In this document: positions 5,144 through 38,336 of the stretch, one piece after another | Layout of the letters: each line of letters starts with the position of its first letter | Numbering within the stretch: position 1 is the stretch's first letter | Assembly (NCBI GenBank): GCA_020853615.1 | Contig: JADYYO010000201.1 | Coordinates: forward strand, 1 to 51,422 | Source: Thermomicrobiales bacterium | Lineage (GTDB): Bacteria > Chloroflexota > Chloroflexia > Thermomicrobiales > UBA6265 | Reading direction: 5' to 3' | Length of the DNA: 51,422 bases | Position numbers and translations under genes: made by a program | The notes under the pieces: model-generated | The model's database searches: none | Seen by the model: the letters and a program-made list of their open reading frames with translations, nothing else | What the model was told of the DNA's origin: nothing

Positions 5144-6280
5144 TCAGGATGCCGCTTTTGCGAGCTGTACCGCGACTCCGGCCCCGTCCGACTCGCCACG
5201 TCGCAGGCGGCTCGCGGCATTGCTGATCGCGGCCAGCGCCTCCCGCATCTCGGGCTCATGCACCCAGCCCATGTGCCCGACCCGCACGATGGCATCGGCG
5301 AGGTGACCCTGCCCCGCCTGCGCTTCCACCCGGTAGTCCTGCCGCAGCATCGCCAGCATCGTCTTCGCGGAGACGCCCTCCGGCGGGAAGAAGGCCGTCA
5401 CGCTATCGCTTTCATACCCCTCGGCCGCCAGGAGGCGCAGCCCCGCATCCCGGATTCCCCGTCGAGTCACCTCCCCGATGCGCCGATGGCGCGCCCAGAC
5501 CTGCTCGATCCCCTCGTCATCGATCATCCGCAGCGCCGCATGGAGCGCGTAGATGAGCGAAAGGGGCGCCGTCGTCGGCGTCATCCCGTCTTGCGCCATC
5601 GTCCGCGCATCGGCCATGTCCCAGAAGAAGCGGGGGTAGCCGGCACGCTGCTGGGCGTCCCAGACGCGGGGACCCGCCGCCACGATCAGGAGGCCCGGCG
5701 GGCACATCCACGCCTTCTGCGAGCCCGAGAGGACCAGATCGATCCCCCACGCATCCATCTCCAGCGGCAAGGCCCCCGCCGCGCTCACCGCGTCGACGAC
5801 CAGCAATGTGCCATGCTCGCGCACCACCGCCGCCAGCTCGCGCAGCGGGTTCGTCACCGCCGTCGACGTCTCGTTGTGGACCAGAAAGACAGCGCGAACG
5901 TCGGGGTTCGCGGCCAGCGCGGCTCGCAGATCCTCGGGCCGCACCGGCTCACCCCACGGAATCTCGAGCCGCCGCACATCGAGCCCGAGCCGCTCGCCCA
6001 CCTTCGCGAACCGCTCGCCAAAGTTGCCATTGGCCACGGCCAGCACCGGGTCGCCGGGCGACAGCAGGTTGACGATTGCCACCTCCCAGCCTGCCGACCC
6101 TGTCCCCGCCCAGACGAGGACATCGCCAGCGGTCCGGTGCGCCTTCCGGGCCAGATCGAGCGTTTCGGCAAAGAGCGCCCGGAATGCCGGGCCGCGATGT
6201 GGGATCATCTCCTGGCCCAGCGCTTCCACCACCTGCGGCGGCAGTGGCGTCGGACCCGGAAGGCGGAAGTTCATGGACAT
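5144..6280 (-). CDS. Class V aminotransferase (alanine-glyoxylate / serine-pyruvate type)
   Basis: A PLP-dependent fold-type I aminotransferase of 378 residues, the usual length for this subfamily. It opens with NFRLPGPTPLPP, the typical substrate-loop start of alanine-glyoxylate and serine-pyruvate aminotransferases. The PLP-binding lysine lies in VLSGSQKAWMCPPG, and AVSAAGALP follows the conserved aspartate in LLVVDAVSAAG. It would interconvert glyoxylate or pyruvate with small amino acids such as Ala, Ser or Gly; substrate preference cannot be read from the sequence. The start at 6280 has GGAGAG 7 nt upstream. Earlier in-frame ATGs have no such site. The gene is divergent from the AI-2E-family permease. 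Confidence 0.85.
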   Translation of the reverse strand: MSMNFRLPGPTPLPPQVVEALGQEMIPHRGPAFRALFAETLDLARKAHRTAGDVLVWAGTGSAGWEVAIVNLLSPGDPVLAVANGNFGERFAKVGERLGLDVRRLEIPWGEPVRPEDLRAALAANPDVRAVFLVHNETSTAVTNPLRELAAVVREHGTLLVVDAVSAAGALPLEMDAWGIDLVLSGSQKAWMCPPGLLIVAAGPRVWDAQQRAGYPRFFWDMADARTMAQDGMTPTTAPLSLIYALHAALRMIDDEGIEQVWARHRRIGEVTRRGIRDAGLRLLAAEGYESDSVTAFFPPEGVSAKTMLAMLRQDYRVEAQAGQGHLADAIVRVGHMGWVHEPEMREALAAISNAASRLRRGESDGAGVAVQLAKAAS

Positions 6281-34963: not shown

Positions 34964-36253
34964 CTACGCCTCGACGATCCCGCACCACTCGGCGATGAAC
35001 ACCGATGTAGTAGCAATTGCCGTGCCTGAATCGTCCAGGGGGATCGATTCGTCCGGGGCATGCGCGAGTCGGACGTCGCCCGCGCCAAACATGACGCAAT
35101 CGGTCGCTCCCGACATGATGAAGTGGCGCATATCAGCGCCATAGGTGACAGCTTCGACCCGAGGCGACGTCCTTGTCACCTGCCGCCACGCATTGCCCAA
35201 GGTCGTCACGAGCGGCGAGTCGACGGCCACGTCGGCGGGAACGAACTGGCCATCCAGCCATTCGAGCCGCGGCGGATGCTCGCGCAGCCACGGATCCTCG
35301 GCGGCGAGGGCCCCGACCTCCGCCGCCAGCCGCTGTTTGAAGGCGTCGAGCGTTTCCCCCGGGACCAGGCCAGCGCGGCCCTCGGCGACGACGAACTCGG
35401 GGACGGACGAGGCCCAGGAGCCACCCCGGATCGTGCCGATATTGATCGGCGCCTTGTTGCGCATAGTGGCGTAGAGCGGGTGCGAGATCTCCCGGTTGTG
35501 CCGCGCTTCGAACGCGAGCAGGCCCTGATGAAGATAGGCAAACTTCTCGATCGCGCTGACCCCTTCGTCGCGCGCGCAGGCATGGGCGGAGAGCCCCGGC
35601 ACATGGAGCCGGAACATGAGGGAGCCGCCCTGCGCCGGAACGATGGCCAGGTTCGTCGGCTCGGAAATCAACGCCGCATCCGCGACGTAGCCGCGCAGCA
35701 CGGCAGCGAGCGCGCCGGCGCCTCCATCCTCTTCCGAAATCGTGCTCTCCAGAATGAGCTCACCGGCTGGTTCGTATCCCGCCAGCCGCAGCGCGCGCAG
35801 CGCGAAGAGGTTCGCGACCAGGCCGCCCTTCATGTCGCAGGAGCCGCGGCCGTACACGCGGCCGTCACGTACGAGGCCGCCCAACGGATCGACCGTCCAG
35901 GCCGCGGCATCCCCAGTCTCGACAGTATCGATGTGCGCGTTGAGGATCAGCGAGCGACCGCGCCCCCGGCCACGCGCAACGCCGACGACATTCGGCCGCC
36001 CGGCGTAGCTCGGCTCCAGCGTCACGAACTCGGCAGACGGCCGCAGCGCCTCGACGTCCGGTTCCCAGACGTCGACCTCGAGCCCCTCTTCGCGCATCAA
36101 CGCCGCGACACGCTCCTGAACCGCACCCTCCGCGCCCGTTTGGCTGGGGATCCGGACCAGACTCGCCAGCGTCTCCGCGAATTCGTCCTGCAGCGCCTGC
36201 ACGGCGCCTTCGATCCGCGCGACAAGCTCTGGGCTCACGCCTCCGCCGCTCAT
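34964..36253 (-). CDS. M20-family metallopeptidase/deacylase (ArgE/DapE type)
   Basis: A 429-residue dizinc hydrolase. Motifs in order: LNAHIDTVETG (first zinc His and Asp), GRGSCDMKGGL (bridging Asp), ESTISEEDGGAGA (general-base Glu and zinc Glu), ISEPTNLAI and the C-terminal zinc His in HAPDESI. The dimerisation domain lies between about 190 and 300. The family includes acetylornithine deacetylase, succinyl-diaminopimelate desuccinylase and peptidases; without an adjacent pathway the substrate is open. Its ATG overlaps the stop of the CHAD gene by 4 nt (ATGA), so it is the third gene of a coupled cluster. Confidence 0.9.
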   Translation of the reverse strand: MSGGGVSPELVARIEGAVQALQDEFAETLASLVRIPSQTGAEGAVQERVAALMREEGLEVDVWEPDVEALRPSAEFVTLEPSYAGRPNVVGVARGRGRGRSLILNAHIDTVETGDAAAWTVDPLGGLVRDGRVYGRGSCDMKGGLVANLFALRALRLAGYEPAGELILESTISEEDGGAGALAAVLRGYVADAALISEPTNLAIVPAQGGSLMFRLHVPGLSAHACARDEGVSAIEKFAYLHQGLLAFEARHNREISHPLYATMRNKAPINIGTIRGGSWASSVPEFVVAEGRAGLVPGETLDAFKQRLAAEVGALAAEDPWLREHPPRLEWLDGQFVPADVAVDSPLVTTLGNAWRQVTRTSPRVEAVTYGADMRHFIMSGATDCVMFGAGDVRLAHAPDESIPLDDSGTAIATTSVFIAEWCGIVEA

Positions 36254-36846
36254 GCTGCTTCACCGGCTTCTTCTGGCGCCTTCCCGGCCGGCGCGATCGA
36301 CAGCGCGACCAGCGCTTCGCGCATGCGGGACGACTCGGCGTCGTCCCAGACCTCGCGAAATCGCTCGTACGCCTCGCGCCTCGCCGCGTGCTCTCGCCCG
36401 AGCAGGCCGATCAGACCGCGACGGGGATCGTCAGGCGGGGGCCGCAGCGCCGCAGCGGCAATCGCGCTCAGCTCATCCGGCGTGGCCTCCGCGATCGCCA
36501 ACCGCATCTCCCGGCTCTGCTCGACCATCAGCCGCGAGAGCTCATCGCCGATCACATCGATGCGGACATCGTGATCGTGCAGCGCGCCGAGCGCCTCCTG
36601 CACCGATTTCAGGCGATCGATCAACGGCTCGCTCTCCGCGCCCAGCCAGGGCTGGAAGAGCTCGAGCGTGTAGCGAAGTCGCTTAGCGGCGATGCGCATT
36701 TCGTGCAACTCCCGCGAAAGCACTGGATGGGCGACGATCGGCGCGAACGCGTAGAACTCCGCGATCCGGACCGCGAGCAGGCGCCGGGCGTTGTCGAGCA
36801 CCGGGGCGTCCGCGTCGATGCCGTGCCTCGGCCAGGTCCTGCTCAC
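36250..36846 (-). CDS. CHAD-domain protein, second half of a CHAD fold
   Basis: A 198-residue all-helical protein carrying one CHAD repeat. Its LHEMRIAAKRLRYTLELF has the H-x-x-R-x-x-x-K-R-L-R core that gives the domain its name (conserved histidine alpha-helical domain). It continues with VQEALGALHDHDVRIDVIGDEL. CHAD domains bind polyphosphate. A normal CHAD domain has two such repeats; the preceding gene ends with the first and this one supplies the second. The GTG at 36846 shares four bases (GTGA) with the preceding stop and has GGAGG 6-7 nt upstream, so separate translation is plausible. A -1 slip on the GGGGG run just before would instead join the two frames. Confidence 0.8.
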   Translation of the reverse strand: MSRTWPRHGIDADAPVLDNARRLLAVRIAEFYAFAPIVAHPVLSRELHEMRIAAKRLRYTLELFQPWLGAESEPLIDRLKSVQEALGALHDHDVRIDVIGDELSRLMVEQSREMRLAIAEATPDELSAIAAAALRPPPDDPRRGLIGLLGREHAARREAYERFREVWDDAESSRMREALVALSIAPAGKAPEEAGEAA

Positions 36847-38336
36847 GCGCCCTCCTCCCCCTGACGCTCCTCGGGCTCCGAGGGCGCCTCCAGCGGCCCG
36901 AACCGCCGCTCGACCTCGCCCCAGAACGGACCGCCGAGGAGCGCGCAAAGATACGCCTCCATCTCCTCTCGCGCCTTGCAACGCTCGGCTTCCACATGGG
37001 CGATCAGCCGGTCGATCCCGGGGCGCTCCGTCAACGGCGCGGCATCCCGATCCGCCCGTAGCGATTCCACCATCACGTCCAGATCGCGCACCGCGCCCAG
37101 CTCGCGCGTGACCGCTTTGGCTTCTCGGTGCAGCGTCCTGAACCACTTGTGAGGAAAGACCGGACCAGCAACATCCATCGCCGCGCGCAGCCGCCGCGAG
37201 GCGACCCGCACGTCGTGAACGCCCTCGGGGTCATTGGCATCCAATGCCCGCGGAACCAACGCCTTAAGACGCGCCCAACGCTCGGCGATGAGCGACAGCA
37301 TCGCGTCCTGAAAAATCGGCATTCCACTGGCGCTCGCGCGCGGCGTGGGCCGCGCGCCCGCCTCCTGCTTGCGGTGTGATGTCTGCTTCCCGGAGCCGCG
37401 GCCGCGATCGGGCTGCCCGGGATGGGCGAACGCCTGCAACAGGAGCCCGGTGCGAATCCCGCTGCGCGCCACCTGGATCTGTTCCGTCCCGATCCGGTCC
37501 GCGATGGCGGCGACGATGGCAATGCCAGCCGGAAGCACGCGCGCTCGCGCCTCGGGCGCTTCGATCTCGTCGGCCAGCTCCGCAGTCGTCAGCACCGCCA
37601 GCTTGCCCAGGACCTGGCGGACCGTTTGCGGCTGAATCGCGCGCTCATCGGGAACCAGCCGCGCCATGAACTCCCCTGTCCCGCCGACGACGATCAGGCG
37701 GACATCCGGGCCGACGGGCAACCGCACGGCCTTGGCCACCCGCGCAATCGCTGCTGCGGCGTCCGCCTCGACCAGGGCCAACTCTTCCGATGTCGGCGGA
37801 TCGGCGTGCACGAGACGATCGGTAAGGCGGCCCGATCCGAGGGGGATGGAGCGCGCCCCCTTGACCGTTCCCCCGTCGGCGACGATCACCTCGGTGCTGC
37901 CGCCCCCGATATCGGCCACCACCACCCGCCCGGAGAGATCGGTCGTCGCGCCGAGGCCGCGAAAGGTCAGCGCGGCCTCGTCAAGACCGCTCAGCAGCCG
38001 CACCTCGATGCCGGTTTCGCGCCGCACCCGCTCAAGAAATGCCTTCCCATTCTGCGCCGAACGGGTCGCTTCCGTCGCCACGGCCAGAATGCGCGAGGCG
38101 CCGTGGACGCGCGCGCGCTCGGCGAATCGCTTCAGCGTGTCGATGGCGATTTCGATCCGGTCGTCATCGAGCCGGCCCGTGCGATCCAGGTCCTGACCCA
38201 GGCGCACGACCTCGGAAGCCCAGTCGATCTGCTCGACCCCGCCGACGCCGTCGGGCCGGCCGATCGTCATCTTGATCGAGTTGGACCCGATGTCGATCGC
38301 CGCCGCGATCGGGCGGTCCGCGTGCTGAGCGGTCAC
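36843..38336 (-). CDS. Ppx/GppA phosphatase fused to the first half of a CHAD domain
   Basis: A 497-residue protein. Residues 10-300 form a Ppx/GppA domain of the actin-like ATPase fold: AAIDIGSNSIKMTIG (phosphate-1 loop), VATEATRSAQNG, VVADIGGGSTEVIV (phosphate-2 loop) and a conserved Glu in STEV. It should hydrolyse polyphosphate or pppGpp. A basic linker (near 305-345) leads to a CHAD repeat, VHDVRVASRRLRAAMDV and ELGAVRDLDVMVESL. The C-terminal third of the Ppx2-type proteins is replaced by the CHAD part. This couples a polyphosphate-binding module to a polyphosphatase. The missing second CHAD repeat is encoded by the next gene. The ATG at 38336 was kept; a weak ribosome-binding site precedes it. 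Confidence 0.88.
   Translation of the reverse strand: MTAQHADRPIAAAIDIGSNSIKMTIGRPDGVGGVEQIDWASEVVRLGQDLDRTGRLDDDRIEIAIDTLKRFAERARVHGASRILAVATEATRSAQNGKAFLERVRRETGIEVRLLSGLDEAALTFRGLGATTDLSGRVVVADIGGGSTEVIVADGGTVKGARSIPLGSGRLTDRLVHADPPTSEELALVEADAAAAIARVAKAVRLPVGPDVRLIVVGGTGEFMARLVPDERAIQPQTVRQVLGKLAVLTTAELADEIEAPEARARVLPAGIAIVAAIADRIGTEQIQVARSGIRTGLLLQAFAHPGQPDRGRGSGKQTSHRKQEAGARPTPRASASGMPIFQDAMLSLIAERWARLKALVPRALDANDPEGVHDVRVASRRLRAAMDVAGPVFPHKWFRTLHREAKAVTRELGAVRDLDVMVESLRADRDAAPLTERPGIDRLIAHVEAERCKAREEMEAYLCALLGGPFWGEVERRFGPLEAPSEPEERQGEEGA

Follow-up and report, generated by a model that had tools for sequence, protein, structure and literature searches.

A conserved two-gene form of the CHAD domain beside a Ppx-type phosphatase in Thermomicrobiales and further bacterial lineages

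Introduction

Among the modules dedicated to polyphosphate (polyP) binding, the CHAD domain is the best characterised one, and it is regarded as a domain formed by a single chain. Mutational tests of CtCHAD addressed H253, R256, R260 and R296 of the first helix bundle as well as R418/Y419 of the second, and the CHAD domain of ygiF stimulates ygiF activity (PMC6537752). With regard to polyphosphatases of the Ppx type, the C-terminal region of E. coli PPX accounts for most of its polyP binding, and short forms are less processive, i.e., only quasi-processive (PMC3411833).

Here, we analyse a locus in a 51,422-nt stretch of DNA from a Thermomicrobiales bacterium (contig JADYYO010000201.1), in the following called the window. 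The original prediction, made from the sequence, placed one CHAD repeat at the end of a Ppx/GppA-type protein and the other in the next, overlapping gene, and offered three options, namely a real split, a programmed -1 frameshift or a sequence error. In the literature that we searched, we found no description of a split, half or heterodimeric CHAD domain.

Results

Both ORFs are present on the reverse strand at the coordinates given by the original prediction. The first, ppx-chadN (36843..38336, 497 aa), encodes a Ppx/GppA phosphatase of the short form that continues into the first (N) half of a CHAD domain; the second, chadC (36250..36846, 198 aa), encodes the second (C) half. The two share a GTGA stop-start overlap (36843..36846), upstream of which lie the GGAGG-type ribosome-binding site of chadC (GGGGAGGAGG, 36851..36860) and the adjoining GGGGG run (36857-36861), i.e., all three described junction elements are found in the sequence. 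Directly downstream of chadC, an M20 peptidase gene on the same strand (34964..36253) overlaps it by a 4-nt ATGA (36250-36253). This gene is a conserved neighbour of the ppx-chadN-chadC cassette in the family; it is probably on the same transcript as chadC and its function is probably unrelated to the CHAD cassette.

The Ppx part comprises an ASKHA core (residues 1-305; 37422..38336, reverse strand) with a Pfam Ppx-GppA match at residues 42-301 (PF02541, E 7.5e-52) and both motifs of the phosphate-binding loops, DIGSNS from residue 15 and DIGGGSTE from residue 142. Its closest solved relative by sequence is the Aquifex Ppx (2j4r/1t6c). Searches with Pfam and TIGR03706 gave no match to the domain III/HD of long-form Ppx in the ppx-chadN product, and its TIGR03706 (exo_poly_only) score of 214.6 bits is below the 307-bit cut-off. 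Exopolyphosphatase activity is a prediction from family membership. The core is followed by a low-complexity linker of about 40 residues (37305..37421, reverse strand), in which an in-frame ATG at 37322 (residue 339) is a potential internal start, and then by CHADN, the first four-helix bundle of CHAD (36927..37304, reverse strand), located by its Pfam profile match.

The division of the CHAD domain is directly visible in the Pfam profile matches. Residues 350-463 of the 497-aa protein cover profile positions 3-116 of 228 (E 2.1e-25), and residues 14-98 of the 198-aa protein cover positions 142-226 of 228 (E 2.4e-18), such that the combined halves span the profile apart from about 25 boundary positions and the gene break falls between the two pseudo-symmetric four-helix bundles. 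The CHAD motifs quoted in the original prediction are found in both proteins, i.e., VHDVRVASRRLR from residue 373 of the first and LHEMRIAAKRLRYTLELF from residue 47 of the second. Since each half is individually far above the CHAD cut-off and the two are the sole CHAD matches of the genome (metagenome-assembled, 413 contigs, 4.2 Mb, 86% complete), the matches are not due to chance. The same genome has one PPK1 match and one Ppx match, the latter being ppx-chadN itself.

We also compared the halves with the polyP-contact residues of CtCHAD, assigning equivalence by motif and constant spacing. All six basic polyP-contact residues of CHAD are present and divided 4+2 between the proteins: the equivalents of H253, R256, R260 and R296 (H374, R377, R381 and R417) sit in Ppx-CHADN, those of R418 and Y419 (R58 and Y59) in ChadC. 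These six residues are invariant in 55/55 split pairs, where the invariance of R418/Y419 is partly built in as the loci were found through KRLRY[TS]LE[LM]. Binding of polyP by the divided CHAD site is predicted.

To what extent the split is conserved can be seen from 150 related genomes that we searched. The C half is present in the majority of the window's family, N and C halves are separate ORFs at every family locus that we read, and the start of chadC overlaps the stop of chadN as ATGA or GTGA in 16/16 family junctions. A fused frame in all close relatives, which together with an indel in the G-run would have refuted the original prediction, is contradicted by these loci. The split inside CHAD is a deep and constant feature, unlike the fusion of Ppx and CHADN. 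That is, ppx, chadN and chadC are three genes in most family members, and the Ppx-CHADN linker region of most relatives contains a stop followed by a new start. A single ORF for Ppx and chadN was read in the window and two of three congeners (G001 and G002; G003 has three ORFs); the fusion is thus a local feature of 3/4 genomes read in the genus, and it is also found in Ktedonobacteria.

The gene order amidase, CapA-like, ppx, chadN, chadC, M20 peptidase and Crp-type regulator is conserved within the genus and in part outside it. From Thermomicrobiales to Ktedonobacteria, chadC shows a conserved leader M(S/A)(K/R)A..V.G(L/I) directly from its start codon onwards, in favour of independent initiation. 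Among further families of the same taxonomic order, f2 has an 8-nt overlap in another frame relation and f5 an 8-nt gap between the half-genes. The f2 pair comes without an adjacent ppx; the Ppx partnership is therefore not universal.

Two side observations concern families of the same taxonomic order. In f2 (L050, L051, L053, L056), the N-terminal leaders of chadN and chadC resemble each other (M(A/V)(K/R)A..V.G(L/I)), a picture reminiscent of tandem duplication of the half-genes or of one start copied onto the other. In f4 (L097:3937-6537, L057), ppx is followed by an 870-910-residue protein with a calcineurin-like phosphoesterase and a complete CHAD domain (domain content by Pfam for L097).

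The relation of the halves to ordinary CHAD domains was assessed in two trees, from which the doubtful pairs L137 and L144 were excluded. In the first, built from 168 halves, a single branch (length 0.61, SH-aLRT 99) separates the 84 N from the 84 C halves, regardless of whether they are split or fused, which places each half as the positional orthologue of the N or C half of an ordinary CHAD domain. The second, concatenated tree (55 split, 29 fused) implies about 9 changes of state (7-9 in bootstraps), with at least three changes required by the starred branches. In it, the window belongs to a split clade of 16 members with full support.

Using the C-half alignment as seed, we scanned 84,980 species genomes and obtained 80 named loci, which we classified; as the seed pattern favours split members, locus counts are not to be read as frequencies. 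The split CHAD recurs in Chloroflexota/Thermomicrobiota, Acidobacteriota, Armatimonadota and Eremiobacterota. The identical layout, i.e., Ppx-CHADN plus CHADC, is found in Ktedonobacter racemifer, K. robiniae, Ktedonospora formicarum and at least four Thermogemmatispora, with isolates among the Ktedonobacter and Thermogemmatispora examples. Further split pairs are found in Armatimonadota (including Chthonomonas calidirosea), Blastocatellia, many Bryobacterales/Solibacter and Eremiobacterota. The original prediction had considered it unusual that the polyP-binding module of a polyphosphatase is completed by a second polypeptide. The split itself is real, but it is no one-off given its presence in at least four phyla, and the attachment to Ppx is only local.

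Several loci deviate from the adjacent arrangement. In three Acidobacteria (G150-G152; L160-L165), chadN follows ppx on one contig and chadC lies on another, always behind the same conserved, unrelated gene; these are metagenome-assembled or draft genomes, but all three show the unlinked pattern and an identical neighbour gene. As the two halves cannot be translated jointly in these genomes, co-translation is not a requirement. In Thermosporothrix hazakensis, Ppx and CHAD are encoded by a single ORF of 657 aa (L102:4480-6450), which looks like a re-fusion, since it is nested in the split Ktedonobacteria clade and its linker retains the AKA of the chadC leader. Finally, the Ppx beside the split CHAD of the Acidobacteriota locus L131 is of the long form with domain III, i.e., CHAD is not simply a replacement of domain III everywhere. 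In Thermogemmatispora (L085, L087, L088, near 5995-6003), the TAA stop of chadN and the ATG start of chadC are in the same frame, six bases apart; with this geometry, low-level stop readthrough would yield a fused protein.

For the structure, we used AlphaFold2 on the Thermogemmatispora aurantia pair read through its single stop, i.e., on a joined chain of a distant relative, where the joining favours contact between the halves. The CHAD part of this proxy was modelled with pLDDT 90.6 and pTM 0.87 as eight long helices in two bundles, and the only stretch below pLDDT 50 (residues 145-152) spans the stop (residue 147). Among PDB entries, the CtCHAD-polyP complex 6qva matches it best (E 5e-7, TM 0.73/0.76), and all matches below E 0.001 are CHAD entries. 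The full proxy of Ppx and CHAD reached a pTM of 0.58, and we thus make no claim on the placement of CHAD against Ppx.

Discussion

The conserved two-gene CHAD is a variant of a known domain and real in nature. That the halves are separate genes is near certain, and that they form a heterodimer is likely. Taken together, we consider it probable from sequences and model that the two stable genes, which many lineages retain separately and under constraint, encode products which assemble in trans into one heterodimeric CHAD domain, where the physical assembly of the two products is what we infer.

In such a system, ribosomes ending ppx-chadN at the TGA would re-initiate at the overlapping GTG and thereby couple the production of ChadC to its partner, beside which it is made. 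ChadC would dock on the Ppx-borne CHADN bundle and complete the basic polyP channel. Since this Ppx belongs to the short forms and lacks domain III, it is plausible that the assembled CHAD provides the grip on polyP, in analogy to ygiF; it may serve binding, processivity or granule attachment. In relatives with three genes, ChadN and ChadC would build this module as a complex of their own next to Ppx.

The role of ChadC could also go further, i.e., it may be an exchangeable regulatory subunit that switches the polyP grip of Ppx on or off or that is shared with other polyP proteins. Its separate production, in some Acidobacteria even from an unlinked locus, would be what enables such control. 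We regard this as rather unlikely; if true, half a domain would act as a regulator.

Less probable still is that the halves do not pair, such that Ppx-CHADN and ChadC homodimerise individually into CHAD-like modules, each with its own role. Homodimers are geometrically conceivable, as the internal twofold symmetry of CHAD is almost perfect (PMC6537752), and the unlinked chadC of the three Acidobacteria would be in line with separate roles. However, N and C halves retain distinct conserved features that match those of fused CHAD domains, they are adjacent in the large majority of cases, and both occur in every genome checked.

We consider it very unlikely that chadC is a decayed or neutral remnant and that Ppx alone is of relevance. 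The end branch of the window copy (0.36) is indeed longer than those of its congeners (0.06-0.12), which may reflect either accelerated evolution of the lineage or a sequence of lower quality. On the other hand, ChadC is 60-67% identical within the genus, its polyP residues are invariant, and start, ribosome-binding site and synteny are retained.

A programmed -1 frameshift that joins the frames into a protein of about 690 residues has hardly any probability left. The chadC frame is indeed -1 relative to chadN in the window's family, and in the window the G-run is just upstream of the junction. However, a G-run near the stop is found in only 4/22 junctions and at differing positions, while an X_XXY_YYZ slippery heptamer near the stop is found in none of the 22 pairs (one pair has one 384 nt upstream). 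Furthermore, the frame relation varies by family (-1, +1, or in frame with a stop), the chadC frame of some pairs is open for just 5-6 codons before the chadN stop, and, as the most telling natural evidence, the halves are unlinked in three genomes. Lacking a conserved heptamer and a kept G-run and given the varied geometries, we consider this option ruled out.

Least probable of all, to a degree we take as negligible, is that an ordinary fused gene for Ppx-CHAD was broken by an assembly error or by a recent frameshift mutation (pseudogene). The origin of the window from a contig of a metagenome-assembled genome and the single ORF of T. hazakensis would suit this reading, but it is refuted for the lineage since congeners and family are split at the same point with start codon and conserved leader, and isolates show the same layout. 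Among the three options of the original prediction, relatives, isolates and junction geometry thus leave the real split as the supported one.

With the trans-assembled heterodimer as the preferred reading, the lasting two-gene form in isolates and at least four phyla would mean that a CHAD domain can be assembled in trans. It offers a natural split pair for polyP sensing tools, and a comparison of Ppx-CHADN with and without ChadC would directly test in which way a polyphosphatase benefits from CHAD. For annotation, it is a warning that the half-genes are not to be merged or dropped as errors.

When compared with known systems, residues 1-305 share the two-domain ASKHA core of the short-form Ppx/GppA proteins (Aquifex 1t6c/2j4r, M. 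tuberculosis PPX1). The difference lies in what follows, i.e., half a CHAD domain here, nothing in the short form and domain III in the long form. With regard to CHAD (PF05235; CtCHAD 6qv7/6qva, RcCHAD 6qv5, ygiF), profile and model point to the same fold with the same polyP-contact residues, while the known structures are single chains and the bundles here are separate polypeptides. The single-ORF protein of T. hazakensis has the same domain order, i.e., Ppx, CHADN, CHADC, but in one gene. Finally, TTM/CYTH-CHAD fusions such as E. coli ygiF likewise use CHAD as the polyP-binding partner of a polyphosphatase; they belong to another catalytic family and carry an intact CHAD, unlike the split pair described here.
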